From Aurantimicrobium minutum (GTDB taxonomy: Bacteria; Actinomycetota; Actinomycetes; Actinomycetales; Microbacteriaceae): DNA of 64,000 nucleotides. The notes below the pieces were generated by a model that did no database searches, had not been told where the DNA came from, and saw nothing but the letters and a program-made list of their open reading frames with translations. Of this stretch, positions 9,844 to 60,054 are shown piece after piece. Each line of letters starts with the position of its first letter. Within the stretch, counting starts at the first letter, position 1. The stretch is taken from the NCBI RefSeq assembly GCF_002355535.1, contig NZ_AP017457.1, forward strand, positions 1,240,001-1,304,000, in the 5' to 3' direction. The translations under genes were made by a program, and so were the position numbers.

Positions 9844-9851
9844 CTGAGGTT

Positions 9852-13790: not shown

Positions 13791-13792
13791 GG

Positions 13793-14329: not shown

Positions 14330-14335
14330 TCTCGG

Positions 14336-14734: not shown

Positions 14735-14794
14735 GTGTTTATCCTTTTTTCACCAGGTTTCGCCATCCGTTACGCGGGTGGCGACCTGTGGTGC

Positions 14795-15741: not shown

Positions 15742-15743
15742 GA

Positions 15744-16112: not shown

Positions 16113-16143
16113 TTCTAACTCCTTTTACGAAGTAGGCCAGGGC

Positions 16144-16742: not shown

Positions 16743-17161
16743 TATGCGTCTCCCTCCTCGCGCTTGATGATGCGTGCCTTGAGGGGCAGCTTGTGGATTG
16801 CACGAGTCATTGCTTCACGAGCAATGGTCTCGTTCACACCGCTGAGCTCAAAGAGGACGCGGCCTGGCTTGACGTTAGCCACCCACCACTCTGGTGAACC
16901 CTTACCGGAACCCATACGAGTTTCAGCTGGCTTCTTGGTCAGAGGACGGTCAGGGTAGATGTTGATCCAAACCTTTCCACCACGCTTGATGTGACGGGTC
17001 ATCGCGATACGAGCAGACTCGATCTGACGGTTGGTCACATACGCGGGGGTCAGTGCCTGGATACCGAATTCACCGAAGGAAACCTTGGTGCCACCAGTTG
17101 CCTGGCCGGAACGGCCGGGGTGGTGCTGCTTACGGTGCTTTACACGACGTGGAATCAACAT
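16742..17161 (-). CDS. rplP: 50S ribosomal protein L16
   Basis: 139-residue protein near the A-site tRNA elbow. [19 protein letters not shown] start, [40 protein letters not shown]. It follows rpsC by two bases. Confidence 0.97.
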
Positions 17162-17163
17162 GG

Positions 17164-17919
17164 TTATGCCTCAACTCCTGCTGGAACCGCTGCAGCCTCT
17201 GCCTTAGGGGCACGGCGTGGACGGTCGCTACGCTCGGGACGGACACTCTTCTGGTTTGCCTGCTCGCGAGCAAGCTCCTTGTTGGTGATGTCGCCCTTGT
17301 AAATCCATACCTTCACACCAATGCGGCCGAAGGTGGTCTTGGCCTCGTAGAAGCCGTAGTCGATGTTCGCGCGGAGGGTGTGCAGTGGCACACGGCCTTC
17401 ACGGTAGAACTCGGAGCGGCTCATTTCAGCGCCACCCAGACGACCGGACACCTGGATACGAATACCCTTGGCGCCAGCGCGCTGAGCGCCCTGAAGGCCC
17501 TTACGCATTGCGCGACGGAAAGCCACACGACCTGCAAGCTGCTCAGCAATACCCTGAGCTACCAGCTGAGCTTCAGCCTCAGGGTTCTTCACCTCGAGAA
17601 TGTTGAGCTGGATCTGCTTACCAGTGAGCTTTTCGAGGTCAGCGCGAATGCGCTCTGCCTCGGCGCCACGGCGACCGATCACAATGCCGGGACGGGCAGT
17701 GTGAATGTCGACGCGTACGCGGTCACGGGTGCGCTCGATCTCGATACGTGCAACACCTGCACGGTCGAGGGTCTCGCTGAGCATGTGACGGATCTTGACA
17801 TCCTCAGTCACGAAGTCGGCGTAACGCTGACCCTTCTTCGTGCTGTCGGAGAACCAACGTGACACGTGGTCAGTGGTGATTCCCAGACGGAAGCCGTAGG
17901 GGTTTACTTTTTGGCCCAT
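17164..17919 (-). CDS. rpsC: 30S ribosomal protein S3
   Basis: mRNA-entry protein. [20 protein letters not shown] start; type II KH domain with the GxxG-type loop [17 protein letters not shown]-terminal domain signature [19 protein letters not shown]. 251 residues with a short Ala/Arg-rich tail. Overlaps rplV by one base. Confidence 0.97.
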
Positions 17920-18314
17920 TACTTGGCCTCCTTCTTCGCAGCCTTGCCAGCAACCTCGAGCTCGTCGGGGGTAGCAAGTACGACAGTGATGTGGCTGGTG
18001 CGCTTCAAGATCTTGAATGCGCGACCCTGTGCACGGGGACGGAAACGCTTCAGGGTTGCACCCTCGTCAACAAAAGCTGCTGAAACGAAGAGGTCCTGCT
18101 CGTCGAGGAATGCGTTAGACGCATCTGCCTTGACGCGAGCGTTAGCGATTGCCGAAGCAACAAGCTTGTATACGGGCTCGGAAGCGGTCTGAGGTGCGAA
18201 CCTCAGAATCGCGAGAGCTTCGTGAGCCTGCTTTCCACGGATGAGGTTAACAACGCGTCGGGCCTTCATCGGGGTAACGCGGATGTGACGCACGCGTGCG
18301 ACTGACTCCACCAT
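17919..18314 (-). CDS. rplV: 50S ribosomal protein L22
   Basis: Lines the peptide exit tunnel. [20 protein letters not shown] start and the beta-hairpin region [15 protein letters not shown]-like sequence near residue 90. 131 residues. It lies between rpsS and rpsC. Confidence 0.96.
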
Positions 18315-46007: not shown

Positions 46008-46107
46008 GTTCAACCTGCCATTGGCTTGCAAGTTGAGCAGTTATCCACAGTTTGCACATCACTATCTCGTTACGGCAGGCAGGCCGATATGCGATATACA
46101 AATCGCC

Positions 46108-48867
46108 TTAGGAAACATGCTTTCTCCGGAGACCAAACAAGTAGAGCCCCATCAGTAACAGAGTTATTGCCACCACAGCAGAATTAACCACGGTTAGGCC
46201 TGTCTTGGGCAATCCGGCTGGAGTTATTGCATCCTGTGAAGGCTCTGTTGTTTGAGATGCGAGCAATGTACCAGTAGGGCTGACTTCAAACCAGATAGCA
46301 GTAGAAACCAGGCCCCCGTTAATGCTGGTTCCAGAAAGCGTCAAAGAATGCCAGCCCTCTGGGAGACCAGCAGGTAGCGACGTAGAGCCAGTTACTGCAC
46401 CAAGCGAACCAATGTTTCCGCTTGCAAGTGTCTGTGGTGTTGATCGTAAGACGAGATTCCAGGAAGCACCCGGTTGTAATCCAGTAGTTGCGTAGTCCAC
46501 GGGTGCCTGAGACACCGAGTTACCTACTGCAACATCCAGGGTCAGCGACATAGTTGTGGTGGTGCTTCCAATAGTAAAAGTGACGTCCTTATATGCGGAG
46601 CTATACGTTGCATTTGCATTTGCCGTAGCACGGATGACACAGACACCTGCTGAGGTGAAACTCACAACCCCCGACGCATTCCCAACCGTGCATTGTGAGG
46701 TGGTGTCGGATTGAACACTGTATGTGATGTTTCCCGTTCCACTAGTTGTGGCAAGGGCAGAGGGGGTCAGTGGTGAAGCGTTTGCCAGAACCTGTGTATT
46801 GCTTGGTGCCCATGTGACGGTTTGGCTCTGCGGGACTGTGATGGTGAACACAACATCCTTATATGCCATTGCCTCAGTTGCTGTTCCAGCAGCAGTTGCA
46901 CGAACAACACAGTCCCCTGCGGATGCAAACGAAATCACTGGAGGGTTTGAGCCAGAAATGGTGCAACCTGTAGTACCCGCATTGTTCGCTGAGTAGCTGA
47001 TTGCTCCCGTACCAGAGGATGTAGCTGAAGAATTTGGTGTGAGTTGACCAGCACTCGATGCTGCGGATGTATTACTAGGAGACCAAGTCACTGTTTGTGC
47101 AGTCAGCGCTGACGTAATCGTGACTGAGGTAGGAGTAGTAAATGGGGCCAAGTAGTAGTTGTTTGCATTAGCACCATTCAAGGTGAGGCCAGATACATAG
47201 GAGACAGAATATGTCCCCGTTCCTACTGACGGCGGAATCGAATACTGAGCAGTGCCGGTGGGGGAAGCTAAACCTAGAGAACTCAGGTTTTGTGTTGTTC
47301 CTGCAGCATCGACTATCACGTAAGTCATTGTGCTGTAGGTGCCGTCTGTCGGAGCAATAACCTTCACATATAAGGGGATTTGCGGTAACGCTTGTCCCAA
47401 AAGAATAGGCATAGCACCTTGAGGGAGTGTCCACACTGTAGGACTAAACCCCGTTGGCAATGAAGTGTATGTAGAGTTTGTGACTCCGGCGTAACTGTTT
47501 ACCGTATTTTGAGGCGGAGTTGTAATCGTTGCCCCCAAGGTCCGATACGTCGTATAGCTAGAAAAAACGCCGCCCGTGGGTTGAACAGGTACCCATTGCC
47601 TCCATCCTGCGATTCCTCCGCTTGAGGTGCTAGACGCACTGATGCTACTCCAAGAGAAGGAGTCCGTTACCGATGAAGTTTCGTCTCCAATCAATACACC
47701 CACGATTCCACCTGAGCCGTAGTAGGTGCCCTGACGCAAACCTTCAACAATTGCTCCTGTTGTATATGTTCGAGCAATTTCGACGTGCACAGAACCAGAA
47801 CCTGGTTGATTGTTGTACACATCACCGATCAGTCCACCGATGGCAACAATTTGAGTAGTAGTGCCTGCGGCACTCACACTTGCCGAGGAATGTGAGTCAC
47901 TGACGTAGAGGCTTCCGTTATTCAAGCTGCCAATGAGGCCACCGGCGAAATATATTCGTTGCTGATCATTGCCGGCCGTCTCTTGTGCTACTACAGAACC
48001 GGAGCTCCACACGTTTGAAATTGACGTTGAATACGCTGCAGGATTTGAAACGCTAACTGAAGAATCTCCGACGCTACCAACCAAAATTCCGACACGTATA
48101 TTGTTGGAAAAACTTGTAGAGGTCGTTTGAACAAAGGCGTTAGTGACACCCAAGTTTCGAATGGTTGCGCCTCGAAGCTCAGAAAAAAATCCAAGATTCG
48201 TCGCAGGGCCCGCAGCAGCTGTAATTCGTAAACCCGAAACTTCATTACCAAGACCGTCAAAAACCGAGGCGAAGGCTCCTGATACTAATGAATTTGTATA
48301 GGTATCAGTAAGCGAAATTGATCGACCAAGGGCAATGTTGGTTGATGACGAAGTCAAAGCAATTAACTGAGCTTTGGTGTTCACCACGTTAAACGTTTGT
48401 GAATTAATTTTAAGGTTGGGTGTAGCACCCGTGAGTTGAATACTCGCGCCCAAATCGGATGCCAATTTGTAGAGCGGTGTGGAAGTTAGTTCTACACCGG
48501 CACTTGCTCCTGAGGCTTTGATTGAAGCATTGATGTTTAGAGTGCCCGAAGAGGTGAGAGTGAGCTTTGAGGATGAAGTCCACGCTATTTCTGAATTGAT
48601 AACAATCTTTGTCGATGAAATTTCAGTATTGCCCGAGGCTAAAGAAGCAACCACATCCGAAGCGTTAATGTTGACTGGCCCGGTTGAGGATATGACTCCG
48701 TTGGCTTTCGTCCAGCCGTTACCCTCTGCAGCACCTCCGGCAGCGACGATAGTAATCTCAGAAACACTCGCCTGTGCTGGTGTTGTTTGAAAACTTACGA
48801 AAAACCCAACCACAAACACCATCGCCTGCAATAGACGAAGTTGTTTATGAATCGACTTAATCGACAT
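46108..48867 (-). CDS. large repetitive surface protein with LPKTG sorting signal
   Basis: 919 residues from the ATG at 48867, chosen because GGAGG (complement of 48876-48880) lies eight bases upstream; the frame is open 15 codons further. A signal peptide ends near PAQA. The N-terminal half is beta-rich and resembles adhesin solenoids (KLTLTSSGTLNINASIKASG), with GLUG-like GNEVSGLRI and RGATIRNLGVTNAFV. Two Ig-like Cys-pair repeats begin at SALTAQTVTWSPSNT and VPQSQTVTWAPSNT. The shared membrane-proximal domain starts near residue 770. LPKTG is at 886-890, followed by a hydrophobic helix and RRKHVS. It is the only LP-type signal among five. Confidence 0.85.
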   Translation of the reverse strand: MSIKSIHKQLRLLQAMVFVVGFFVSFQTTPAQASVSEITIVAAGGAAEGNGWTKANGVISSTGPVNINASDVVASLASGNTEISSTKIVINSEIAWTSSSKLTLTSSGTLNINASIKASGASAGVELTSTPLYKLASDLGASIQLTGATPNLKINSQTFNVVNTKAQLIALTSSSTNIALGRSISLTDTYTNSLVSGAFASVFDGLGNEVSGLRITAAAGPATNLGFFSELRGATIRNLGVTNAFVQTTSTSFSNNIRVGILVGSVGDSSVSVSNPAAYSTSISNVWSSGSVVAQETAGNDQQRIYFAGGLIGSLNNGSLYVSDSHSSASVSAAGTTTQIVAIGGLIGDVYNNQPGSGSVHVEIARTYTTGAIVEGLRQGTYYGSGGIVGVLIGDETSSVTDSFSWSSISASSTSSGGIAGWRQWVPVQPTGGVFSSYTTYRTLGATITTPPQNTVNSYAGVTNSTYTSLPTGFSPTVWTLPQGAMPILLGQALPQIPLYVKVIAPTDGTYSTMTYVIVDAAGTTQNLSSLGLASPTGTAQYSIPPSVGTGTYSVSYVSGLTLNGANANNYYLAPFTTPTSVTITSALTAQTVTWSPSNTSAASSAGQLTPNSSATSSGTGAISYSANNAGTTGCTISGSNPPVISFASAGDCVVRATAAGTATEAMAYKDVVFTITVPQSQTVTWAPSNTQVLANASPLTPSALATTSGTGNITYSVQSDTTSQCTVGNASGVVSFTSAGVCVIRATANANATYSSAYKDVTFTIGSTTTTMSLTLDVAVGNSVSQAPVDYATTGLQPGASWNLVLRSTPQTLASGNIGSLGAVTGSTSLPAGLPEGWHSLTLSGTSINGGLVSTAIWFEVSPTGTLLASQTTEPSQDAITPAGLPKTGLTVVNSAVVAITLLLMGLYLFGLRRKHVS

Positions 48868-48913
48868 ACAAAATGCCTCCAACGAAATGGTAGAAAACGC
48901 CTCGAAAACCAAC

Positions 48914-48947
48914 AGGCAGATTCAGTGGTACACCACTGAATCTGCCT
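48914..48947 (-). terminator. terminator after the delta-60 gene
   Basis: AGGCAGATTCAGTGGT (48914-48929) is the perfect reverse complement of ACCACTGAATCTGCCT (48932-48947). The minus strand continues GTTGGTTTTCG. It lies 14 bp past the stop of the LAETG gene. Confidence 0.8.
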
Positions 48948-48961
48948 CACTCGGACCGGCT

Positions 48962-50443
48962 CTAGCCTTGCTGTCCTCGGTGTAGCGAGTACGCCAGCAA
49001 TAGAAGTCCAGATACCGTCGAAACTCCAAAGGTGCCTAAGAGCATCCAGTTGAATGACCCAGTTTCTGCCAATGCGGGAGAGCTAGTTATTGTTACGCCA
49101 TTCGAAGACTGACTGTTGTTTGCGGAATTAGCGTTGTTTACCGCAGCGCGAACGGCAGCATCAGCAGGAACATTTGTAAGCTTGGCAAAATTACCAATTG
49201 CTGTTCCGTTATAAGAACTAAATGCTCCACCAATCAGTACATCACCATTTGAAATCTCAGTTATTGGGACAATGTAGGGATTAGCACTAAAGCCAGTTCC
49301 TGCAGAGAAATTGGGATCAAGCGTACCGGTCGATGATAGTCGAACCATGCTCTTTACAGCCGAACCATTGTAAGTAGTAAACGACCCCGCCACGTAGATG
49401 CTTCCGTCAGAAGCCACAGTGACTCCAGTTGCGCGTTGGCCACCAGCAAATCCAGCCCCACCAGAATTAAATGAACTGTCAAGGGTTCCTGAGGAGCTTA
49501 ATTTGATGAGATAGCCCTGAGGGGTAGAGTTCACACCGGTGAAAAATCCGGCAACGAATATTTGATTTCCTGAAAGAGAGAAATCCATTACAAACTTCAT
49601 TGCCCCAGTAAGTTGGGGCGTGAATGTTGTGTCGGGAGAGCCGTCGGCATTCAAACGTGCAATACCTATTGGAACTGGTTTACTCGCCGCAGTATAAATA
49701 CTTGAACTCAGAGTCGTAAATGTTCCACCAACGAGTATCTTTCCATCAGGTTGAACTTCTAAGGCTACGACTGTCCCGTCGCCTGAACCAGGAACACCAG
49801 CACCAAGATTTGAATTGAAGGTCGTGTCGAGTGTGCCGGTTGAAGATAATTTTGCGATTCGTCCCACTGGGGTTCCAGGGCTTGTCTGACCTGTAACCAT
49901 AAATTCGCCAACGACCAAAATGCTTCCGTCGCTCAGAACGCTAACCCGCTGTCCATATGGATTAGTGTTCCACGCAGCAAAGGGTGCAAATGGAGAGACG
50001 AAGGAGCTGTCAAATGATCCATTTGAATTAAGACGAACAATCCCTTGAGAGGTATTGCCGTTGAAAGACCTAAATGAGCCAGTAACAACAATTTTGCCAT
50101 CCGGCTGAAGCGCCAAGCCCTTTGGGCAAAGAGAAAGACTGACTGTTGGAAATCCCGTTCCGACGTTAAGAGTTTGGTCAATTGAACCGTCAGCGTTCAG
50201 CCGGACAATCATTGGCGCATTTATGCCGTTGTATTGGGTGAAATTCCCAACAGCAACTATTTTCCCGTCTGGCTGAACGACAAACTCATTAACAGTTCCA
50301 TTGAATCCGCTTCCAGAGCCTCCGAACGTGCTACTCAAAGTTCCATCACTAGCTGTGACGACTGCAAAAGCAGTCTGAGAACCAGCCGATGCGAATACGA
50401 TTGCGGCAATCGTGATGAGAATAGTCACCAATTTACGCTTCAT
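48962..50443 (-). CDS. delta-60 repeat surface protein with LAETG sorting signal
   Basis: 493 residues from the ATG at 50443, which has AAGG six bases upstream. Signal peptide ending near TAFA. About seven delta-60 (DUF5122) repeats of the form VxxxxDGKIxVxGxFxxxNG...RLxxDGxxDxxF, for example QPDGKIVAVGNFTQYNG and QPDGKILVGGTFTTL, which usually fold as beta-propeller blades. LAETG is at residues 458-462, followed by a hydrophobic helix and a short basic tail. Neighbour of the LPKTG gene but separated by a strong terminator. Confidence 0.88.
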   Translation of the reverse strand: MKRKLVTILITIAAIVFASAGSQTAFAVVTASDGTLSSTFGGSGSGFNGTVNEFVVQPDGKIVAVGNFTQYNGINAPMIVRLNADGSIDQTLNVGTGFPTVSLSLCPKGLALQPDGKIVVTGSFRSFNGNTSQGIVRLNSNGSFDSSFVSPFAPFAAWNTNPYGQRVSVLSDGSILVVGEFMVTGQTSPGTPVGRIAKLSSTGTLDTTFNSNLGAGVPGSGDGTVVALEVQPDGKILVGGTFTTLSSSIYTAASKPVPIGIARLNADGSPDTTFTPQLTGAMKFVMDFSLSGNQIFVAGFFTGVNSTPQGYLIKLSSSGTLDSSFNSGGAGFAGGQRATGVTVASDGSIYVAGSFTTYNGSAVKSMVRLSSTGTLDPNFSAGTGFSANPYIVPITEISNGDVLIGGAFSSYNGTAIGNFAKLTNVPADAAVRAAVNNANSANNSQSSNGVTITSSPALAETGSFNWMLLGTFGVSTVSGLLLLAYSLHRGQQG

Positions 50444-50672
50444 AACCATCCTTCACCTGAGGGCATATCGGCAACAACGAGACGGAAAGTTGCCTCTCGA
50501 AAAACTACAAACCCAAAAAGCAGAACTCATTGCATTTCAGGGGCTGGCTATTGAAATTGTGGCTTTTGCCCAGTAAAGAGCGAGAAGAGTGAATCAGGTG
50601 TACACCCCTGAATTCGAGGTCAGGTAAGACTCAAAGGATGAGAAACTGGCAACACCTCGAAAGGTTGTTTTG
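50444..50672. other. intergenic region before the two-component operon
   Basis: 229 bp between divergent genes. Contains the 10-bp palindrome GGTGTACACC (50597-50606), 67 bp before the response regulator, as a possible operator. Otherwise nothing recognised. Confidence 0.35.
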
Positions 50673-51323
50673 ATGTTTCAGCGTCGAATTCTCGTTGTCG
50701 AAGATGACGAGTTCACTGGCTCGCTTATCACCACTGCTCTAACCAGCGCTGGCTTTCAAGCTCAGCTAGCGACCTCTGCCCTCTCAGCGAAACGCGCTCT
50801 GCGTGAATTCGATCCAGACGCTGTGCTCGTCGATATCGATTTAGGTATTGGTCCCAACGGAATTGAATTTGTTCAATTGGTGAGAAAGATCAGACCTGAC
50901 ATCACACCCATTCTTCTCAGCAGACACGGCGACACGGTCAGCGCGGGCATGAAAGATGCCCGCATCCCCGATGGCGTTGCATATTTGCGTAAGAGCATTA
51001 TCAAGTCAACAGAAAGTTTGGTGAATGCGGTTCAAGACGCAATGCGCGGGCGAACTGAATCTCTCAGGCATGACAGGCAGCGGGCTGGGGGCCTCGGAAT
51101 GCTAACGAAAACCCAACGCGAGATTCTGCAAATGATGTCCCAAGGACTTTCGAATAAAGAAATTGCTCGGCAAAGAGGTGTAACCCTGTCTTCTGTCGAA
51201 CAAGTTATTCGAAGTATTTTTAAGGTCTTTGGCTTATCTCAAGACGATCTCATTTCTCCCCGAGTTGAGGCAGTAAGAATTTTTGTCGCCGAAAGTGGTC
51301 TTCCTAAGCGCCCATCATCATGA
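50673..51323 (+). CDS. LuxR-family response regulator
   Basis: 216 residues from the ATG at 50673 (AAAGG eight bases upstream). Receiver domain with acidic pocket EDDE at residues 10-13 and phospho-acceptor Asp54 in VLVDIDLG. C-terminal LuxR helix-turn-helix LTKTQREILQMMSQGLSNKE then IARQRGVTLSSVEQVIRSIF. Overlaps the sensor kinase by four bases (ATGA), so the pair is translationally coupled. Targets are unknown; the flanking surface-protein genes are obvious candidates by position only. Confidence 0.9.
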   Translation: MFQRRILVVEDDEFTGSLITTALTSAGFQAQLATSALSAKRALREFDPDAVLVDIDLGIGPNGIEFVQLVRKIRPDITPILLSRHGDTVSAGMKDARIPDGVAYLRKSIIKSTESLVNAVQDAMRGRTESLRHDRQRAGGLGMLTKTQREILQMMSQGLSNKEIARQRGVTLSSVEQVIRSIFKVFGLSQDDLISPRVEAVRIFVAESGLPKRPSS

Positions 51324-53056
51324 TTGATTTCTGGAGAAACCTCGGCCGAAAAGAGGCAATCAACTGGATAGCAGTGGTTCTTCTCCTGTTGATTCAACTC
51401 AACGGTGCGCTCTTAGTAGACTTCGATCTCAACCTCTCCGGAAAGATGCCCCTGTTTTGGCTAGCAAATGCGCTGCCTTTTGTTCCCATGGCGTTGGTTC
51501 TAGCTTTGGGAAGATTCGTGATTATTCCGCGCTTCCCATTGTCGGTGAGGCCGACGATGACACTAATCATTTTTGAAATATCTATTTTCCTCAGGCTTTT
51601 TACTTACGACTTACTACTTCAGGCATTTGGCATAACCGAAGCAAGTCAGTTTTGGGCACGCTTTGGATCAGCTCAGGCAAACCAACTCATCGTCCTTGTT
51701 GTGATCGGATATCTGGTTGCATCAGCGCAAGACTACGCACGTCAAAATGCAGAATTAGCGAGTCTGCTCGCCGTCACCAAAAGTTCTCAGCAAGAGGTTC
51801 AGAACAGACTTCTCAAACGTAAACAAGCTCTCATCAAAAACATTGAAACACAGCTCAATTCTGCACTCAACACCGTGAAGGAAACAGACTCCCTCCAAAT
51901 TGCAGAACAACTCAAGTTCGTTATTGACAGTGTGGTACGCCCCCTCAGTCACCAACTAGGTAGAGGGCAAAAAAGCGAACCTTCCACCTTTGAATATGTC
52001 CCAAAGAGCCGGATAGACATTCGCTCTTTATTGGTGCGTTCCTTCACAGACAACCCCTTCTACCCAGTGTTGTCCGTGTTGTGGATGTTCTTTCCTGTTA
52101 TGACAACGATTGCAAGCTATGGCAGTAGAAATACATTGTTGTTGTCTCTCTTGTTTTCAGGGTTGCTCTTGGGGGCACTGTTTATTGCGCGTCTGTTGTG
52201 GATGTTGCTTGTACAAAAGTTGGTGCTTCCAGCCCGAGTTGTGTGTTTCACCAGTGTTCCCCTCGTATTATCAGTGCTGATTGTGTGGTTCTTCTCTCTC
52301 ACTGCTGGGATCAACACCCTCGATAAAATCGGGATGTTGTTTTTGTACTTCTTTGCAATCGTGACAACAATCACTTTGGTTGGTACATCGCGTCGGATGC
52401 TTCGGGAAAAAAATTCAGAACTCAAAGAAGCCAACGCTGAAGTAAAGCGTGAGCTTGTAAATGAACAATCCGAAGCGCGAAGCTTTGAAGAAACAGTTTC
52501 ACGTGTTTTACACGGCCCCATTCAGGATGCAATATGGGCATCCCTGAGGCGCATTGAACAGATGGGCCCAGCGTCGAAACTCAGTTCGCGAGATCTCGAA
52601 TTCGTGCGTCAGCCAATTACCGACGCGTTGTTGCTGTTGCGGGAACCGGTATCAGAAACTCAAAACATTGAGGATTCGCTACAAGAACTTATTGAACTCT
52701 GGGGTGGCGCTGTCGACATCACCTTGAGTATTCCCCCTTCCCTGTCTCACGAAATTGAATGTTCTCCCACAACAAGTAGGGCACTTGCAGAATTACTACG
52801 CGAAGCTATTTCAAACGCCATCAGACATGGGGATGCGACAGAAGTTGTCGTTGAACTGAGATCAACTGCTGACGGCCAGGACATCCACGTCAAGGTTGTC
52901 AATAATGGGGCACCCATACCGATGACTGCAACCCCTGGACTCGGTACACAACTCCTTGATGACCTCACCCTCTCGTGGAGCAGATCGAATCACAAAAACA
53001 GCGTGATTCTCGAAGCGGTAGTGCCCTTACAAAACAACACATATCTAAACCAGTAA
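51320..53056 (+). CDS. membrane sensor histidine kinase with two membrane blocks
   Basis: 578 residues. Four or five helices (about 15-140) are followed by a cytosolic coiled coil (about 140-230), a second block of four helices (about 250-360) and another coiled coil. The phospho-acceptor is probably His398 in SRVLHGPIQDAIWASLRRIE, an HGxxQ version of the HDxxQ motif of HisKA_3 kinases. The ATPase domain has the N box LLREAISNAIRHG, VNNGAPIP and GLGTQLLDDL. The two separated membrane blocks are unusual. It ends just before a hairpin and the tRNA-end repeat. Confidence 0.85.
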   Translation: MIDFWRNLGRKEAINWIAVVLLLLIQLNGALLVDFDLNLSGKMPLFWLANALPFVPMALVLALGRFVIIPRFPLSVRPTMTLIIFEISIFLRLFTYDLLLQAFGITEASQFWARFGSAQANQLIVLVVIGYLVASAQDYARQNAELASLLAVTKSSQQEVQNRLLKRKQALIKNIETQLNSALNTVKETDSLQIAEQLKFVIDSVVRPLSHQLGRGQKSEPSTFEYVPKSRIDIRSLLVRSFTDNPFYPVLSVLWMFFPVMTTIASYGSRNTLLLSLLFSGLLLGALFIARLLWMLLVQKLVLPARVVCFTSVPLVLSVLIVWFFSLTAGINTLDKIGMLFLYFFAIVTTITLVGTSRRMLREKNSELKEANAEVKRELVNEQSEARSFEETVSRVLHGPIQDAIWASLRRIEQMGPASKLSSRDLEFVRQPITDALLLLREPVSETQNIEDSLQELIELWGGAVDITLSIPPSLSHEIECSPTTSRALAELLREAISNAIRHGDATEVVVELRSTADGQDIHVKVVNNGAPIPMTATPGLGTQLLDDLTLSWSRSNHKNSVILEAVVPLQNNTYLNQ

Positions 53057-53070
53057 GTATGGGCAAAAGA

Positions 53071-53100
53071 AAACACCTGAACAAAAGAGTTCAGGTGTTT
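53071..53100 (-). terminator. terminator beyond the tRNA-end repeat
   Basis: AAACACCTGAAC (53071-53082) pairs perfectly with GTTCAGGTGTTT (53089-53100). On the minus strand the stem is followed by TCTTTTG, a better T-tract than on the plus strand, so it reads best as a terminator for minus-strand transcription, the direction of tRNA-Ser. It can also end the kinase operon. Confidence 0.75.
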
Positions 53101-53102
53101 TC

Positions 53103-53116
53103 ATGTCAGCTGACAT
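53103..53116. repeat. 14-bp perfect palindrome
   Basis: ATGTCAGCTGACAT, three bases before the tRNA-end repeat and two bases after the terminator stem. Possible recombinase or repressor site at the islet edge. Confidence 0.45.
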
Positions 53117-53119
53117 CAC

Positions 53120-53143
53120 ATGGCGGTCCCGGTGGGATTTGAA
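53120..53143 (-). repeat. 24-bp copy of the tRNA-Ser 3' end (putative distal attachment site)
   Basis: This stretch is identical to 58526-58549, which is the 3' end of tRNA-Ser (T arm, acceptor strand, CCA). It is in the same orientation. The bases beyond it (TTCTCTTCACC) do not continue as a tRNA, so it is a detached end, not a gene. Confidence 0.8.
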
Positions 53144-53319
53144 TTCTCTTCACCCTCCAGAACAAGATTGGGCATATGTTAAGAATTGACAGGAATACAG
53201 TGTTTTTGGCGCCTTACAGCAATTTATATTCATGCAGGACCACGGTGAGACGTGCTAAGTAGCTCGTGAGCACCTTCTGAATCTTGGGCAACAATTATGG
53301 TTCCAATTTGCAGAGGCAT
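53144..53319. other. left end of the islet, no gene
   Basis: 176 AT-rich bases between the tRNA-end repeat and the first islet gene; no ORF, hairpin or RNA recognised. Confidence 0.5.
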
Positions 53320-53760
53320 TCAAGCACGTTCTGTAAACCGATTGCGGCGCGGGTGTGGATCCAAATCTGGTGCGCCCGTCATCACTTGACGAACCCCAGG
53401 GTAGTGTGGCGAAGTCTTCTGCAGCACATCCGCAAAATGCGCGTCTGAGAGTTGCTCTCTCATCGCATCGCGCCAAGCTTCCCACGTCTGGCGCGGTAAC
53501 TTGCCTTGACGTCGATGGTCAAACTCGTCTTCGCAGAGCCTGAGGTATTGCAAAATAATGAGTTCGTCTTCTGGGGTCGGCTTGCCGTCAATCACCAGCT
53601 GAGGTGACCGTCGGTCCATGATCTCCCAGTACCTCTGAACAAATGTCATCTCCATGTCGCGGTGCATTGCCGTGCTTCGCAAGAACAACTGCCACACAGC
53701 AGCAAAAACTGCGAGCAGTGTTATCGATTGAAAGATGATGCTGATGGTTTCGTTACTCAT
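53320..53760 (-). CDS. hypothetical protein with N-terminal membrane anchor
   Basis: 146 residues. One N-terminal hydrophobic helix (IIFQSITLLAVFAAVWQLFL) then a soluble helical domain with MTFVQRYWEIMDRRSPQL and CEDEFDHRRQGKLPRQTWEA. AAAGGGG lies four bases before the ATG. I do not recognise a family. It is the first gene inside the islet on the distal side. Confidence 0.7.
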   Translation of the reverse strand: MSNETISIIFQSITLLAVFAAVWQLFLRSTAMHRDMEMTFVQRYWEIMDRRSPQLVIDGKPTPEDELIILQYLRLCEDEFDHRRQGKLPRQTWEAWRDAMREQLSDAHFADVLQKTSPHYPGVRQVMTGAPDLDPHPRRNRFTERA

Positions 53761-53812
53761 GTTCCCCTTTACTTTTCGTTCTGAGTTATTGCGTACTCAA
53801 CAGTTAAGACAA

Positions 53813-53856
53813 ATATGCCCCCCATCCCGAACTTCGTTGAGAGACAGGGGGCATAT
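53813..53856. terminator. terminator between LAKTG gene and hypothetical gene
   Basis: ATATGCCCCC (53813-53822) and GGGGGCATAT (53847-53856) form a stem with a 24-base loop, 10 bp past the LAKTG stop. The plus strand continues ATTTTTATTT, the minus strand TTGTCTT. Confidence 0.65.
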
Positions 53857-53866
53857 ATTTTTATTT

Positions 53867-54742
53867 CTAGCTATTCAGAGCTTTCTTTCGGCTCAGAGCA
53901 CGAAGGACAACAAGTCCCGCGCCGAACGCAAGTAACACCGCAGAACTAACCAGGTATCCAGACGAGTCAGTTCCCGTCTTAGCGAGGACAGAAGTCCACT
54001 GTGCATAAAGCGTGGTGCTACTTCCAAATGGGTAGGAAGCGCCATCAGCATAGGCAGTTCCGGTGCCATCGGCTGCTGTGTTCCACCCGGTAAAGGTATA
54101 ACCACTGCGGGTAAACGCATTCGTACTGAGGTTTGTTGCAGTCGAAGCGGACTGAACAGCCATCGCACCACTACCACCATTGGCGTTGAAAATAACTGTG
54201 CTTGCAGGAGCTACATATCCTGTAAGCGCAACCGGATTAGAACCATTGTCGTATTGAGCAACTGGCTGAGCAGCAACGAATGTTCCTGTTACGACGTTGA
54301 GAGATGGTGCATTCGGCAAAATGACAGAGTTAGCAGCAAATGTGAACGTCCAAGTAACGTTGGCAGGCCAGTTATTTGCGTTTGAAGCAAACCCCTGGGC
54401 ATAAACATCAGAAGATCCTGAAGGAACACAGTTTGGGTTGATGCCTTGGTCCGCCGAGACGCTGACAATGCTTCCGCATTGATAATTAGTCGGTGCGGTA
54501 ACCCACGTTGCACCCATCAAGCGAACTTGGGAAGAGTTATTCGAATTACCGGCCATAGCTGTAGGTGCTGTGAAGGTCACAACAATGGGAGCCGAATTCG
54601 GCTGCCCTGCAGTGAGGGCGCCTGTGCTGGTGACCGTCACATTGGAAGTAGTCGCTGCTTGAGCCGGCGACGTGACCCCCAAGGTTGCCAATCCAGCAAC
54701 GAGGCCTGCAGCGAGTACACGAAAAATAGAGGAAGCATTCAT
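53867..54742 (-). CDS. secreted surface protein with LAKTG sorting signal
   Basis: 291 residues from the ATG at 54742, which starts a clean signal peptide (MNASSIFRVLAAGLVAGLAT, cleavage near PAQA). The frame is open 21 codons further upstream, but that would run through the operator palindrome. The body is a beta-rich domain with two cysteines, then one InlB B-repeat (VIFNANGGSGAMAV; GYTFTGWNTAADGTGTAY; STTLYAQW). LAKTG is at 253-257, then a hydrophobic helix and RALSRKKALNS. No ribosome binding site precedes the ATG, so the mRNA may be leaderless. Confidence 0.83.
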   Translation of the reverse strand: MNASSIFRVLAAGLVAGLATLGVTSPAQAATTSNVTVTSTGALTAGQPNSAPIVVTFTAPTAMAGNSNNSSQVRLMGATWVTAPTNYQCGSIVSVSADQGINPNCVPSGSSDVYAQGFASNANNWPANVTWTFTFAANSVILPNAPSLNVVTGTFVAAQPVAQYDNGSNPVALTGYVAPASTVIFNANGGSGAMAVQSASTATNLSTNAFTRSGYTFTGWNTAADGTGTAYADGASYPFGSSTTLYAQWTSVLAKTGTDSSGYLVSSAVLLAFGAGLVVLRALSRKKALNS

Positions 54743-54756
54743 GAACCAAAGATTAC

Positions 54757-54771
54757 TAGATAAATTATCTA
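54757..54771. promoter_or_regulatory. palindromic operator before the LAKTG gene
   Basis: TAGATAAATTATCTA, a perfect palindrome with a central A, 15-29 bp before the LAKTG start. Its core GATAAATTATC is identical to the palindrome at 55476-55492 on the other side of the TetR gene. Confidence 0.65.
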
Positions 54772-54801
54772 TTCTCGGTTCCTGATATTGCATTTCTTTT
54801 C

Positions 54802-55404
54802 TCAATCAGACTGGAGTGAGTTGATTACAGTTTCGACGAGTGCGATCCAGTCTTCATTCGGCACATGCTTGACCGAAATATCGTCAATAGCCCGACCGAG
54901 TGAATACGCCTGTAAGAAGACTGCAATTGCTTGAGGGCTCAACTGGGCGTTCACAAAACCTTTGGCCTGGGCGATTGCAATCGCTTCTGCCATGGCGTCG
55001 GTGACCCTCTGCTGCTCTTCCGCAAGCGCGACAGCAAATTCCTCATCTGCGGAAGCAGTACTCATTATGCGAGCTCGTTCTGCTCGTATAGGCGCGCGGC
55101 TCGGAAGCTGCGTGTATGCACTCAACTCTTTGATACGAGTCCAGTATTCATCTTTCGATTTCGCAGAGTTGGCAACTTCCATCATTGCTTGGCCGTCGGT
55201 AGCAACGTTTGCCGAAAAGCGTTGAAGCAACGTGGCCCGGATGAGACCAGAAAAGTCGCCGAAATGGTGATACAGAGAACTGCGCGCTACACCAGAAATC
55301 TTGAGGACATCGTCAACCAAGATGCCATGTGGATTAGAGCTATCCAGCATTGCAGAGACAGTGTCCATCAGCTTTTTCGCCGTGGGATGTAACTGCTGTG
55401 TCAT
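54802..55404 (-). CDS. TetR-family transcriptional regulator
   Basis: 200 residues. N-terminal helix-turn-helix VLKISGVARSSLYHHFGDFS (about residues 28-48) has the SLYHHFGD recognition pattern of TetR proteins; the rest is the helical ligand/dimer domain, with AIAVFLQAYSLGRAIDDISV near the C-terminus. It lies between two surface-protein genes and is flanked by matching palindromes, so it probably represses both. The ligand is unknown. No ribosome binding site is obvious before the ATG. Confidence 0.9.
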   Translation of the reverse strand: MTQQLHPTAKKLMDTVSAMLDSSNPHGILVDDVLKISGVARSSLYHHFGDFSGLIRATLLQRFSANVATDGQAMMEVANSAKSKDEYWTRIKELSAYTQLPSRAPIRAERARIMSTASADEEFAVALAEEQQRVTDAMAEAIAIAQAKGFVNAQLSPQAIAVFLQAYSLGRAIDDISVKHVPNEDWIALVETVINSLQSD

Positions 55405-55475
55405 GAAGAAAGCTTACGCGCTCAGCAACTAAACCTAAATAAAACGATTTTCTCCTGTAATACAAAAAGAAGAGA

Positions 55476-55492
55476 TTGGATAAATTATCCAA
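55476..55492. promoter_or_regulatory. palindromic operator before the LALTG gene
   Basis: TTGGATAAATTATCCAA, a perfect 17-bp palindrome 21-37 bp before the LALTG start, in the region divergent from tetR. TTGGAT (55476-55481) could itself be a -35, with GATATT (55499-55504) as -10 after 17 bases; that promoter would start transcription at or next to the ATG, giving a leaderless mRNA. Confidence 0.65.
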
Positions 55493-55512
55493 CTCCCAGA
55501 TATTCTGCTCGT

Positions 55513-58392
55513 ATGAGCTGGAAAAAATTTCTCACCGTCTTTGTCGCTGCCACAGTCGGGTGCATGACAGCGGTTCTTCCGATTACCGCAGCAAATGCAG
55601 CCACTTTGAGTGTCGATCCAGTAAATATGGTTCAGCCAGGTTCGACTAATACCAAACCTTTGTGGATCAGCATTAACAATCCGACGAACCCCGTTTCGAA
55701 AATCGAATTGATTTTTACTGGGGGACAAGTGCTCAACTCTGGCGCATCCGCTTCAATTGTTACTGACCTCAACGGAGCAAACTGCGGTAGCTCAGCTATC
55801 TACATGTGGTCGGGTAATGCCGTTGGAAGTGGCATTACAGGAACATGCAACAACACAACTGCAAGCCAAATAATCTGGACCTCGGGTGGAACAGCTAAAA
55901 ATGTTGGCGACAGGTTTGGATTTAACTTACCTATTGGATCACTGACGTTCGCTAGCTCTGGCCCGTACACAGTTGATATTAAGATTGACAACGTTTTGCT
56001 TCAAACATTGACCCTGACTCTTGCGACACAGTCGCAAAGCGCACTCAACGTGACGAGCACATCGGGGACCTTTGGTACACCACTAACTCTCACGACTTCG
56101 GGTGGCTCTGGAACCGGAGCGATCTCCTACTCCGTCACGAACGGCGCATCGACAACAGGCTGTGCCGTGAGTAGTGGCGTGTTGACGTCCACCTCGGCTG
56201 GAACATGCTTGGTGACGGCTACTAAGGCAGCCGACTCGTCATACTCAGCAATTTCTTCCTCCCAGACAACCGTTACCCTCGGGAAAGCGTCACGAACACT
56301 CAGTTTTGGATCCACGACAACGTACACGCTTGCTTACGGCGCAACGCAAACAGTCGTGGCCACTCCCGACAAAGGCGCTGGCGATGGCGCGGTAACCTAT
56401 TCGGTCAGTGCAGGAACAGCCTGCACGGTAGATTCATCAACCGGCCTCATTAGGGTGACTGCATCTACAGGTTCGTGTTCCGTTTCCGCATCTATAGCGC
56501 AGGGGTCCAATTACCTCGCCGCGACGACTACGACGCAAGTTATTGTCAACGGCTCGGTCAAGGCCATCACCATCACAGGAGGAAGCCCTACTGTCAATTA
56601 CGGAAGCTCCTTCAGCCCGACTGCTCTTGACATTAGCCAAGCACTTGTTGGAACTCAGGTGCTCGATTATTCTGCAGCTACCTTCACCTACACAGGGTTC
56701 AATGGTACGTCGTATGGGCCTTCAACCACGCGGCCAACCGAAGCTGGTTGGTACAAAGTATTACCTTCCAATGTGATCATCGAGACGCCTGCCAATGTCG
56801 ATACGACAGCAAACTACAACATCACGTATGCACCTGGGTCTCTCGAAATCAGGAGAGTAAGTCGCTCGCTCACATTCAACACGACTAGCGCCACTCTGTC
56901 CTACGGTGATACGCAAAGGTTTACCGCGACTGCCTCTGCGGGAGACGGCACAGTGACATATTCAACGGGTTCATCTACGGCTTGCTCAGTGGACCCTACC
57001 TCGGGTGTTGTTTCCATCACCGCTGGAACGGGAACATGCGATCTTTCTGCGTCAATAACTCAAGGAACCAATCACCTCAGCGCAACTGCACTCCCCGTAT
57101 CACTAACTGTTACCAAACGCGCATTGACAATTACCTCAAGTAGTCCCACTACGACTGTGGGTCACACCTTTACACCGTCCTTCTCAGTGACCACCGGCAC
57201 GCTCGTGAGTTCTGAGGAAATTTCGGGTGTGACGTATAACTATGAGGGAAGCGGTGGCACCACCTACGCAAATTCAACAACCGCCCCGACTGCAGTGGGC
57301 ACCTACTCAGTCACTCCCTCAAGTCCGGTATTCGCTGCGGGCTCTGCGGCAAACTATGCAGTTACCTTCACTGCGGGAACTTTAACAATCAACAACAAGT
57401 TGTCTCGAACACTTTCCTTCTCGAACACCAGCTACACCCTTGAATATGGGGATTCGCTAATTGTGGTAGCGGCTGTTTCTGGTGGCCCTTTTGATGGAAC
57501 GGTAACCTATGCGGCAGGTGCTTCTACAGCGTGCAACGTTGATCCCGCTTCTGGAAAAATCGAAGTGACTGCAGGCTCAGGATCTTGTGTCGTAACAGCA
57601 GAAATTTCTGAGGGAGTTGATTACCTCGGAGCAGCAACAAACATTCCCGTCACGGTCAGCGTTATACCTCGAGCCATCACTATTACAGCTAAAGATGAAG
57701 TTATTGACTTCGGAAATGGCATCACCCCAGGGTATGAAATTACTCGGGGGACGCTTCAGAACTCGGATGCCATTTCGGGAATGAGCTACAACTATGCCGG
57801 TGCAGGTTCGACCACTTATGCGAATTCCAGTTCAGTCCCGACTGAGGGCGGTACATATTCAGTGATTCCCTCGGCGGCAGTCTTCTCGTCAGGTTCAGCA
57901 TCAAATTATTCGCTTACCTACACCCCTGGACTGATTACTTTCAACCAATCTCGTGAAGCTGCTGCCTCTATGGACATGGCGGCATCCGTAGGAATGTATA
58001 TCGCAGGGACCGCTCTGACCTTCAATGCGAGCGGATTGCAAACTACGGCCGCTTACGATGTTGTCGTTCGTTCAACACCGCAAACTCTCGCGCGAGGGAA
58101 TGCCGTTGGTGGTTCAGTCAGTAGCACCGCCATCATTCCTGCAGGTCTTGAAGCTGGCTGGCACACAGTCACCTTTACCTCAACTGCTGCTGACGGAACA
58201 AAGGTAACTGATTCTATTTATTTCAAGCTCTCAGCCTCGGGAATTTTGCTATCAGAATCGAAGGTGATGCCGACTGAGCTCGCTCTCACCGGTTCCAACA
58301 TGACTCCAATCGTAATCTCGGGGAACGTAATCATCCTGCTTGGAGTAGCCCTAATGGCTTTCAGCCTTCACAGAAGAAGAAAGATGGCATAA
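55513..58392 (+). CDS. MBG-domain surface protein with LALTG sorting signal
   Basis: 959 residues. Signal peptide ending near ANAA, then a beta-rich N-terminal domain (about 35-175). After that, Ig-like Cys-pair repeats alternate with MBG-type repeats: SRTLSFGSTTTYTLAYG, KAITITGGSPTVNYGSSFSP, SRSLTFNTTSATLSYGDTQ, RALTITSSSPTTTVGHTFTP, SRTLSFSNTSYTLEYGDSL, RAITITAKDEVIDFGNGITP. The shared membrane-proximal domain (about 818-915) precedes LALTG at 923-927, a hydrophobic helix and RRRKMA. No ribosome binding site precedes the ATG. Likely an adhesin or matrix-binding stalk; the ligand is unknown. Confidence 0.85.
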   Translation: MSWKKFLTVFVAATVGCMTAVLPITAANAATLSVDPVNMVQPGSTNTKPLWISINNPTNPVSKIELIFTGGQVLNSGASASIVTDLNGANCGSSAIYMWSGNAVGSGITGTCNNTTASQIIWTSGGTAKNVGDRFGFNLPIGSLTFASSGPYTVDIKIDNVLLQTLTLTLATQSQSALNVTSTSGTFGTPLTLTTSGGSGTGAISYSVTNGASTTGCAVSSGVLTSTSAGTCLVTATKAADSSYSAISSSQTTVTLGKASRTLSFGSTTTYTLAYGATQTVVATPDKGAGDGAVTYSVSAGTACTVDSSTGLIRVTASTGSCSVSASIAQGSNYLAATTTTQVIVNGSVKAITITGGSPTVNYGSSFSPTALDISQALVGTQVLDYSAATFTYTGFNGTSYGPSTTRPTEAGWYKVLPSNVIIETPANVDTTANYNITYAPGSLEIRRVSRSLTFNTTSATLSYGDTQRFTATASAGDGTVTYSTGSSTACSVDPTSGVVSITAGTGTCDLSASITQGTNHLSATALPVSLTVTKRALTITSSSPTTTVGHTFTPSFSVTTGTLVSSEEISGVTYNYEGSGGTTYANSTTAPTAVGTYSVTPSSPVFAAGSAANYAVTFTAGTLTINNKLSRTLSFSNTSYTLEYGDSLIVVAAVSGGPFDGTVTYAAGASTACNVDPASGKIEVTAGSGSCVVTAEISEGVDYLGAATNIPVTVSVIPRAITITAKDEVIDFGNGITPGYEITRGTLQNSDAISGMSYNYAGAGSTTYANSSSVPTEGGTYSVIPSAAVFSSGSASNYSLTYTPGLITFNQSREAAASMDMAASVGMYIAGTALTFNASGLQTTAAYDVVVRSTPQTLARGNAVGGSVSSTAIIPAGLEAGWHTVTFTSTAADGTKVTDSIYFKLSASGILLSESKVMPTELALTGSNMTPIVISGNVIILLGVALMAFSLHRRRKMA

Positions 58393-58489
58393 AGCCTCGA
58401 TTTGAAGGAGCATTGCAAAAGGCTGACTTCCACACGACGGTCGCATTATTTCTACACAAGAGATTAATGACGCTTTAGTCCAGGCATGG

Positions 58490-58523
58490 AAAAAGACCTC
58501 CCTCGAAATGGGGAGGTCTTTTT
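58490..58523 (-). terminator. terminator of tRNA-Ser and the LALTG gene
   Basis: AAAAAGACCTCCC (58490-58502) pairs perfectly with GGGAGGTCTTTTT (58511-58523). It sits three bases from the tRNA CCA end and works in both directions. Confidence 0.88.
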
Positions 58524-58526
58524 CAA

Positions 58527-58616
58527 TGGCGGTCCCGGTGGGATTTGAACCCACGGTACGCTTTCACGTACACAACTTTTCGAGAGTTGCACCTTCGGCC
58601 GCTCGGACACGGAACC
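58527..58616 (-). tRNA. tRNA-Ser (anticodon CGA)
   Basis: The minus strand folds as a 90-nt class II tRNA. The acceptor stem GGTTCCG/CGGGACC has discriminator G and encoded CCA. The anticodon stem CAACT/AGTTG encloses CTCGAAA, giving CGA, which reads UCG serine codons. The long variable arm GTACGTGAAAGCGTAC is the serine hallmark, and the T arm has GTTCAAATC. Its 3' end is duplicated at 53120-53143. Confidence 0.96.
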
Positions 58617-58689: not shown

Positions 58690-60054
58690 ATGGCCAAAGC
58701 AACTCCTGGATACACCTGCACAGAATGTGGCTGGACCACAGTTAAGTGGGTTGGTCGTTGTGGTGAATGCCAGGCGTGGGGGACCGTCGTTGAGGAGTCA
58801 ACAAAGACCGGCATCCAAGTCAAGATGACCCCGGTTTTTGTCAGCGAAGACAATGCCGCCAGGCCTATCACGGAGGTTCCCGTCGATGGTGAACTCACTC
58901 ACTGGGCTAGTGGTATCAACGAGTTTGACCGTGTGCTCGGCGGAGGAATTGTTCCCGGTGCTGCCATCCTGCTTTCTGGTGAACCCGGTGTGGGAAAGTC
59001 CACGCTGCTGCTCGAGGTGGCATCCCGCGCTGCCAAGACCGGCATCAAGGTTCTCTATGTCAGCGCGGAAGAGTCAGTGAGTCAGGTGCGCTTGCGTGCG
59101 TCCCGCACGGGCGCACTGACCGACAACCTCTATCTCGCAGCTGAGACAGATCTCTCCACCATCATCGGCCAGATTGATGCGGTGCAACCTGCCTTGCTCA
59201 TCGTTGACTCTGTGCAGACTGTTGCCAGTTCTGCTGTGGATGGTCTGGCCGGTGGCCCCAGCCAAGTGCGCGAGGTTGCCAGCGTTCTCATTCGCGTAGC
59301 GAAGGAACGCAACCTCCCCATTCTTCTTGTTGGCCACGTCACCAAAGACGGCACTATTGCCGGACCTCGCCTTCTCGAACACTTAGTTGATGTTGTCTGC
59401 CACTTCGAAGGCGACCGTCAAACCGCCTTGCGGTTTGTCCGCGCACTGAAGAACCGGTTCGGTCCCACCGATGAAGTGGGCTGCTTCGAAATGACCGGAG
59501 ATGGCATTGCTGAAGTTCCAGACCCCAGTGGTCTGTTCTTGAGTAGATCTTCAGTTGCCGTTTCGGGAACGTGTGCAACGGTTGCCCTGGAAGGAAAGCG
59601 GCCACTGCCTGTGGAGATTCAGGCGCTGGTGGTTCCCACCAGTGCACCCAATCCTCGCCGGGTCACCAACGGGTTGGACAGCTCACGTGTTGCCATGTTG
59701 CTGGCTGTGTTGGAGCGCCGAGCTGGACTCAAACTCAGCGACAAAGATGTCTACGTCTCCACTGTGGGAGGTGTTCGTCTGAACGAGCCTGGTGCTGACC
59801 TGGCCATCGCCATTGCCGTGGCGAGTGCATTCCATGACAAGCCAATCGCTCACACTGTTGCTGCGTTTGGTGAAATCTCTCTGGCCGGAGAAATCCGCCC
59901 CGTCAATGGCGGTAAGCAACGTGATGCCGAGGCGACCCGCTTGGGCTTTAGTACCCGTATCGATCACAATGTGGGAACACTGCGCTCAGCACTCAAAGAC
60001 GCCTTCGACACAGCCAAAGACGCCCGCGAGCGCGAAATCGACGCTGCGTTCTAA
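58690..60054 (+). CDS. radA: DNA repair protein RadA (Sms)
   Basis: 454 residues. Zinc finger Cys10, Cys13, Cys24, Cys27 (YTCTECGWTTVKWVGRCGEC), RecA-like ATPase with Walker A GEPGVGKST, the RadA motif LKNRFGPTDEVG, and a C-terminal Lon-protease-like domain (DVYVSTVGGVRLNEPGADLA). Helps process branched recombination intermediates. No ribosome binding site is clear before the ATG. Its end overlaps the convergent DUF779 gene by four bases. Confidence 0.96.
   Translation: MAKATPGYTCTECGWTTVKWVGRCGECQAWGTVVEESTKTGIQVKMTPVFVSEDNAARPITEVPVDGELTHWASGINEFDRVLGGGIVPGAAILLSGEPGVGKSTLLLEVASRAAKTGIKVLYVSAEESVSQVRLRASRTGALTDNLYLAAETDLSTIIGQIDAVQPALLIVDSVQTVASSAVDGLAGGPSQVREVASVLIRVAKERNLPILLVGHVTKDGTIAGPRLLEHLVDVVCHFEGDRQTALRFVRALKNRFGPTDEVGCFEMTGDGIAEVPDPSGLFLSRSSVAVSGTCATVALEGKRPLPVEIQALVVPTSAPNPRRVTNGLDSSRVAMLLAVLERRAGLKLSDKDVYVSTVGGVRLNEPGADLAIAIAVASAFHDKPIAHTVAAFGEISLAGEIRPVNGGKQRDAEATRLGFSTRIDHNVGTLRSALKDAFDTAKDAREREIDAAF

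Follow-up and report, generated by a model that had tools for sequence, protein, structure and literature searches.

Cis-mobilizable elements (CIMEs) and their tandem accretion have been defined in an account that, in the part drawn on here, gives ICEs or IMEs as the parents of CIMEs (PMC5704250). Additive flexible genomic islands targeted to tRNA genes are described, in the excerpts considered, for "Candidatus Actinomarinales" (PMC7771536), for Methylophilaceae (fGI-2; PMC10872708), and for Alteromonas (fGI1; PMC4119200), and the ssrA islands of Dehalococcoides are presented as tandem units bounded by repeats at the end of a tRNA-like gene, 15 of them without an integration module (PMC3146451). 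By analogy, the islet analyzed here, islet B of Aurantimicrobium minutum, resembles CIMEs and tRNA-targeted additive islands, a general kind already known. As in the excerpted description of CIMEs, islet B has a core at both ends, no integrase was found in it, it is stacked with other DNA at one target gene, and one relative (islet 2 of genome G006) keeps the stump of a lost integrase (PMC5704250). With the additive islands, as far as they are described in those excerpts, it shares an aquatic bacterial host, cassettes added at a tRNA gene, a stretch of the tRNA that recurs next to the cassettes, and content that varies between strains; with the Dehalococcoides islands, on the same footing, it shares a tandem arrangement bounded by gene-end repeats and a missing integration module (PMC3146451).

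The window is a 64,000-nucleotide stretch of the genome of A. minutum, a very small bacterium of fresh water (G000; other G numbers denote comparison genomes). Its relevant features, in window positions, are as follows.

46008-53119, no strand: islet A, most likely an older islet, no left att found; its relative in G003 has a degenerate left core and arms, and the block is absent at the locus in G002
46108-48912 and 48962-50449, minus strand: anchored surface proteins of islet A (ORFs, Pfam, anchors)
50670-51323: response regulator of islet A
51320-53056: histidine kinase of islet A
53069-53102, no strand: hairpin at the right end of islet A, presumed former tRNA-downstream hairpin (reading, fold), like the hairpin beside tRNA-Ser in G003
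53103-53116, no strand: palindrome ATGTCAGCTGACAT, lying between the hairpin and the core, with similar sequences in G006 and G007
53120-58525: islet B, 5.4 kb, surface-protein genes beside tRNA-Ser
53120-53143, plus strand: distal att core, a copy of the 3' end of tRNA-Ser, marking where islet B begins on the left (repeat; the left homology block of G003 ends here)
53144-53151, plus strand: TTCTCTTC, islet-side extension of the core, also present at one distal copy in G001 and at three in G006
53144-53248, plus strand: conserved internal left end, in which the GTGTCC(A) pair known from its relatives is unrecognizable
53320-53760, minus strand: small protein, membrane type by eye, 146 aa, no Pfam match (ORF list, Pfam)
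53867-54742, minus strand: surface protein with List_Bact_rpt domain and LAKTG anchor (ORF, Pfam, anchor reading); a longer start at 54805 is possible
54802-55404, minus strand: TetR-like regulator (Pfam; relatives in G001 and G007)
55513-58392, plus strand: repeat surface protein, 959 aa, with MBG_2 and LALTG anchor (ORF, Pfam, anchor reading)
58489-58524, no strand: hairpin at the right end of islet B, now terminator-like downstream of tRNA-Ser (reading, fold)
58526-58549, plus strand: proximal att core and right edge of islet B, lying within tRNA-Ser for 23 of its 24 nt (repeat; the right homology block of G003 starts here)
58527-58616, minus strand: tRNA-Ser(CGA), integration target (ARAGORN)
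58690-60054, plus strand: gene that we take to be radA-like, conserved right flank (ORF; homology to G003)

A sequence-only reading of this DNA had reported an exact 24-nt direct repeat of the tRNA-Ser end, with no tRNA continuing at the distal copy, and both observations hold. The copies at 53120-53143 and 58526-58549 are identical, a third match is missing from the window at up to three mismatches (0.00 expected from 100 shuffles), and the inner 22 nt occur genome-wide only in these two copies at up to two mismatches. ARAGORN places tRNA-Ser(CGA) at 58527-58616 on the minus strand, so that 23 of the 24 bases of the proximal core lie inside the predicted tRNA, and tRNA gene prediction gives none at the distal copy. 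The locus thus has the direct repeat of a tRNA 3' end at both sides that characterizes tRNA-integrated genomic islands. The att sites at both ends that characterize CIMEs are represented by the 24-nt core, although the left arms have decayed.

The empty site predicted by the same reading was found on alignment to relatives. In G003, homology to the window ends at 53143 and restarts at 58526, giving a 24-nt overlap, and the two-component genes (68.6% identical in DNA to those of the window) are followed by a like hairpin and then directly by tRNA-Ser. This exact empty site belongs to another species of the genus, the window's own species being represented by one genome. In the sister strain G002, islet B and the neighboring islet A are both absent at the locus, the gap from flanking gene to core is ~76 bp, against ~12.5 kb in the window, and the flanks are 93.5 and 94.1% identical. 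Across the 8 genomes of the genus, the core is present once in 4, twice in 3, and four times in 1, the pattern of cassette presence and absence at one conserved locus expected of additive flexible genomic islands. The sequence-only reading had set against itself a repeat left by a decayed second tRNA-Ser in all relatives. That explanation is ruled out by the empty sites and by a core number of 1, 2, or 4; taken together with a chance origin it is extremely improbable, since the conserved islet-side extension and the expectation of 0.00 matches also contradict it. Because relatives carry either no block or different blocks at tRNA-Ser, islet B is most likely what remains of a mobile DNA element after the loss of its integrase.

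The cargo proposed from sequence alone was recovered in full: the 146-aa ORF, two anchored proteins, and a TetR-like protein. The List_Bact_rpt domain and the MBG_2 repeats score above the Pfam cutoff and the TetR models below theirs; three of the four cargo ORFs match other families and the 146-aa ORF matches none in Pfam. Two of the proteins end in C-terminal LAXTG-type anchors; the single sortase match in the genome (1421103-1421501, genome coordinates) lies outside islet B. The TetR-like protein has relatives in the same scpB-radA interval of G001 (71%) and G007 (61%). No transfer genes appeared among those window proteins that a general Pfam scan covered, and islet B had no match in plasmids.

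The hairpin said to lie beyond the distal copy was found at 53069-53102 by reading and folding, and the adjoining palindrome at 53103-53116 is present as ATGTCAGCTGACAT. The suggestion that a second terminator came with the islet gains support from the folding of 17 core sites, all of which (17/17) have a hairpin of their own, these folds being without shuffle control. A simple terminator scan picked up part of the right hairpin but missed the left, and the 13 terminators that it listed in all are inside the shuffled range (mean, 10.7; standard deviation, 3.8).

On sequence comparison, islet B falls in a family whose internal left end is conserved. The core plus TTCTCTTC is common to five left ends (G000, G001, and three in G006), and a model of the left end from which the window had been excluded matches the window stretch at an E value of 6.6e-6. 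Paired GTGTCC(A) sites lie 132 to 133 nt in at six of the seven left ends, those of G003 and of another genus among them, and this arm pair is not recognizable at the window's left end. Mean pairwise identity is 0.89 in the arms versus 0.53 in the spacer with the window and G001 left out (the islet of G001 nearly duplicating G006 islet 3), and 0.74 versus 0.52 with the window included. Among 398 genomes of the bacterial family, the core-plus-extension pattern has a match at up to three mismatches in 16, namely, G000, G001, G006 (with one extra 3-mismatch site), G076, and 12 genomes with 2 to 3 mismatches; these further 2- to 3-mismatch sites, two of which were inspected (L107 and L116), were treated as chance. 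The arm pattern gave 7 matches in 5 of the same 398 genomes and 1 in a reversed control. Its match in G257, inside an ORF of a genome without a core-plus-extension match, and that in G311, adjoining a different integrase near tRNA-Phe, were set aside. A scan of genome contigs returned five stretches, one on an Aurantimicrobium contig (G001) and four in other taxa; the latter, of which the one in Humibacter was inspected, were also set aside.

No integrase or integrase remnant was found in islet B, so the own integrase expected of a tRNA-integrated island is missing from it, and the case for its having come from an integrase-bearing element depends on the decayed left end. The window's genome has four PF00589 loci, all away from islet B. 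Two are presumably XerC and XerD, and two strong Xer-like loci occur in each of the 8 genus genomes; the integrase at 1145522 is only weakly like that of G005 (22%), and the G076 integrase piece found no match in G000 at an E value of 1e-40. A helper integrase in this genome was rejected on these grounds. The integrase search proposed by the sequence-only reading was thus negative in the window's genome and turned up a probable family in others. G005 has an integrase with an open frame at tRNA-Ser(CGA), G014 has one at this tRNA too, likewise between two core copies, G076 has a broken integrase at the same tRNA with arm pairs at both ends, and G006 islet 2 keeps a stump of ~40 to 47 aa. In the 29 genomes that scored best once the query's genome is set aside, with one best locus taken from each, the gene beside the integrase is tRNA-Ser(CGA) in 12 and tRNA-Leu(TAA) in 9. 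The relatives known so far are elements with a phage-type integrase, and one of them carries a tape-measure gene; the islets likely stem from a family of phage-type tyrosine integrases that target tRNA-Ser(CGA) in Microbacteriaceae. Viral contigs gave 0 matches for the core, with or without its extension, or for the left-end pattern, and 7 stretches resembling the G076 integrase piece, none of them confirmed.

G006 stacks three islets, the third of which is 98.3% identical over 4,316 nt to the islet of G001, with an integrase detected in neither. Since the left flank (88.6%), the tRNA plus radA (91.3%), and the region beyond radA (88.1%) are far less alike, this integrase-less islet probably moved between the two species as one unit, as judged from these identities. 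On the left, where the neighbors differ, its similarity starts precisely at the core; a sharp end at both edges is weakened by a right side that continues ~300 nt past the core. The islets may still be mobile, through composite excision after accretion (cis-mobilization) or through action in trans, a reading that we consider possible though short of probable. In the accretion route, an integrase-bearing element that has joined the array at the tRNA would excise a composite by way of the islet's left arms and its own right arms, carry it to a new place, and then depart without the islet. Left arms are retained in five of six left ends of integrase-less islets, with a right-arm pair (3 mismatches) in one of seven right ends of such islets scanned, that of G006 islet 2, 88 nt from the core compared with 89 nt in G076. 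That right-arm match is equaled in 51 of 2,000 random 250-nt stretches and so rests mainly on position; neither composite nor excised circle was seen, viral contigs yielded no core or left-end match, the G001 assembly is a MAG broken into 190 contigs with 6% contamination, and the window's copy is without arms. The right-hand continuation also tells against this reading and suggests another, that cargo is swapped by homologous recombination between islets that already have the left core and the tRNA-radA right flank in common, site-specific integration being ancient only. From the core to ~305 nt beyond it, G001, G006, and G007 are nearly identical (2 to 4 mismatches per pair), and the next 444 nt are 11 to 14% diverged; as G007 has this stretch without islet 3, the stretch is not tied to that islet. 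The exactly shared left anchor for such exchange would be only the 32-nt core plus extension, and we regard this explanation as rather unlikely.

We consider it very probable that islet B arose by site-specific insertion at tRNA-Ser(CGA), followed by loss of integrase and arms, and that the arrays grew by successive insertions. The incoming DNA would have carried an att core that recombined with the tRNA 3' end, the right junction restoring the tRNA end and bringing a new downstream hairpin and the left junction retaining the 24-nt fragment. Islet B would descend from phage-type tyrosine integrase elements and have lost the integrase and recognizable arm sites, and repeated insertions, each then losing its integrase end, would have built the arrays of surface proteins and sensors between scpB and radA. 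The histidine-kinase block upstream of islet B is, from its sequence, most likely an older islet. We infer this insertion order, the integrase loss, and the present immobility of islet B from the locus: with neither integrase nor recognizable arms, the window's copy is probably fixed. The sequence-only reading of a mobile or once-mobile cassette without an integrase thus stands as to the missing integrase and fits "once-mobile" better than "mobile," the left arms being unrecognizable.

Unlike with CIMEs as excerpted (PMC5704250), the relatives here are phage-type integrase elements, and mobilization is putative. Compared with the additive islands by their partial descriptions, the Aurantimicrobium islets have an internal left end that is conserved and bears arm-like sites, and candidates for the integrases of their parent elements can be named. 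The Dehalococcoides islands, in the part of the report considered, involve a serine recombinase and a tmRNA target, as opposed to a tyrosine integrase and tRNA-Ser here, and their cargo differs (PMC3146451). Unlike in a tycheposon, a recombinase was not found inside islet B, and in contrast to integron cassette arrays, with their attC sites and integron integrase, the islet repeats are tRNA ends. We tentatively suggest an Aurantimicrobium cassette system at tRNA-Ser(CGA), in which small integrase-less units would have their att site completed by phage-type integrase elements, move between species, and vary the cell surface; each unit would comprise a conserved left att half and its own terminator-like hairpin, many with surface proteins and dedicated sensor pairs.

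Overall, a hotspot at tRNA-Ser has been mapped with empty, single, and triple-islet states inside one small genus, a likely integrase family can be named, and in one case an islet in which no integrase was detected has probably passed from one species to another. In fresh water, streamlined actinobacteria often dominate by number (PMC4929513), and the variable surface proteins of such bacteria may bear on phage attack and attachment.

The 24-nt repeat at 53120-53143 is identical to 58526-58549, the 3' end of the tRNA gene beside which the surface-protein islet (islet B, 53120-58525) lies:

58527-58616, minus strand, tRNA-Ser(CGA)

No further match with up to 3 mismatches occurs in the window (expected, 0), and across the whole genome (one contig of 1,622,386 bp, with the window at C1:1240001-1304000) the inner 22 nt match, at up to 2 mismatches, these two window copies and nothing else. 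When a 22-mer of this core was counted at up to one mismatch in the eight genomes of the genus (the window's genome, G000, and its relatives G001 to G007), the tRNA copy was among the matches in every genome; one copy was present in G002, G003, G004, and G007, two in G000, G001, and G005, and four in G006. In comparison with G003, the left homology block stops at 53143 and the right block begins at 58526, and in converted coordinates the two overlap in G003 by 24 nt; there the tRNA is followed by a hairpin resembling window 53069-53102. In the sister strain G002 (1,581,031 bp), which is 93.5 and 94.1% identical to the window in the flanks of the locus, the gene ending at window position 46007 lies ~76 bp from the core, compared with ~12.5 kb in the window.

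The distal core copies, those away from the tRNA, in G000, G001, and G006 (three) all run on into TTCTCTTC. A 21-nt pattern of core plus this extension, searched in 398 genomes of the family, was found exactly only in G000, G001, and G006; G076, from another genus, has one site with a single mismatch, and 12 further genomes have sites with 2 to 3 mismatches, while the reversed pattern, used as a control, gave no match in the 398 genomes. Six of the seven aligned left ends carry a pair of GTGTCC(A) sites (arms) 132 to 133 nt from where the core starts, and in G003 the second of the two sites is GTGTCCT; unlike these six, the left end in the window has no recognisable pair. For the arms, the spacer, and the sequence beyond the arms, mean pairwise identity (G001 left out as a near copy) is 0.89, 0.53, and 0.24, respectively, without the window, and 0.74, 0.52, and 0.25 with it. 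A model built from the other six left ends matches that of the window (E = 6.6e-6; 106 of 177 positions). In G006, three consecutive islets lie at the tRNA-Ser (L068, reverse complement 2193-18060), each with core, extension, arm pair, and hairpin. The two-component block of G003 is most likely an older islet, because its left side shows, after a hairpin similar to that of G002, a core degraded by 6 substitutions in 32 nt together with arm sites. No recognisable left end was found for the window's version of this block (islet A, 46008-53119).

The sequences of the G001 islet and islet 3 of G006, neither with a detected integrase, support movement between genomes as a unit. They agree at 4243 of 4316 positions (98.3%), compared with 88.6% in the flanking dbpA-like gene, 91.3% across the tRNA plus radA, and 88.1% beyond. 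Whole copies occur only in G001 and G006 among the eight genomes; the matches in G002 and G000 are short and partial. On the left the similarity starts at the core; on the right it extends ~300 nt beyond the core, through a stretch equally common to G007, which is free of islet 3. Over the interval from 0 to 305 nt to the right of the core, which holds the tRNA, the spacer, and the beginning of radA, the three species G001, G006, and G007 are nearly identical, and they are 11 to 14% diverged just beyond. G001 is a fragmented metagenome-assembled genome, in which a mis-assembly at the 32-nt repeat is possible; transfer as a unit is the reading supported by the comparison.

At the same tRNA, G076 has a 16.3-kb element that ends, on the side of the tRNA, in a broken tyrosine integrase and then an arm pair; by eye, its open reading frames (ORFs) are mostly metabolic-looking (L129, 63-16492). 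Islet 2 of G006 retains an integrase stump of ~40 to 47 aa and an arm pair with 3 mismatches, at a distance within 1 nt of that in G076. A relative with an intact reading frame lies at this tRNA in G005, in a 7.9-kb element that also has a tape-measure gene and a replication-type gene; this integrase is 45% identical to one from Gordonia phage Finkle, and the left end of the element is of a different type. At E 1e-40, the integrase family was detected in 67 of the 398 genomes. With the query genome set aside, the 29 genomes scoring highest were each represented by their best locus; the tRNA beside the integrase was Ser(CGA) in 12, Leu(TAA) in 9, and another tRNA in 3, one of them not adjacent to the integrase; the other 5 had no tRNA within the fetched stretch. 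On a tree of 30 rows, the Ser label (13 rows) required 4 changes, compared with 7.3 on shuffling; 2 of 500 shuffles gave a value this low, so integrase targets cluster yet switch. A phage-like element at tRNA-Leu(TAA) in G003 (L094) has an integrase ~62% identical to that of G005, and an additional integrase gene of the window's genome adjoins tRNA-Arg(ACG) (L092, G000:1485627).

Folding of 17 core sites, 15 from the genus and 2 from G076, gave a hairpin on the tRNA-downstream side in every case (without a shuffle control). We read this as replacement of the tRNA terminator at each insertion. A palindrome, ATGTC-N4-GACAT, stands between hairpin and core in one class of right ends, in the window (53103-53116), G006, and G007. 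G007 (L070, 16684-18008) and G006 (L068, reverse complement 7974-8336) have a right end in common, with a transposase-like ORF (by eye); in G006 this right end is internally deleted. It is joined to different cargo in the two genomes, and the islets look chimeric.

CIMEs and accretion (PMC5704250), additive islands with tRNA repeats (PMC7771536, PMC10872708, and PMC4119200), and Dehalococcoides islands that lack integration modules (PMC3146451) have already been described and cover the general kind. The genome announcements for A. minutum KNC-T (PMC4929513) and strain INA4 (PMC10019192) do not mention the locus, and no account of it was seen among the papers listed in searches of mainly freely accessible literature.

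A toxin-antitoxin-like gene pair was seen by eye at the left of the hotspot in G001 (L063, reverse complement 5084-5887) and G006 (L068, reverse complement 1541-2134). By eye, two-component genes are a recurring content of the G001 islet and of islets in G000, G003, and G006; kinase relatives were also identified, and the window pair was assigned by Pfam. In eight oriented 20-kb stretches, LAXTG/LPXTG anchors (motif in the last 60 residues of ORFs of >150 aa) were found in 12 complete ORFs and one cut by a stretch edge; four of these ORFs belong to the window's islets A and B, and the window's genome has one sortase match. The islet cargo may act in surface variation.
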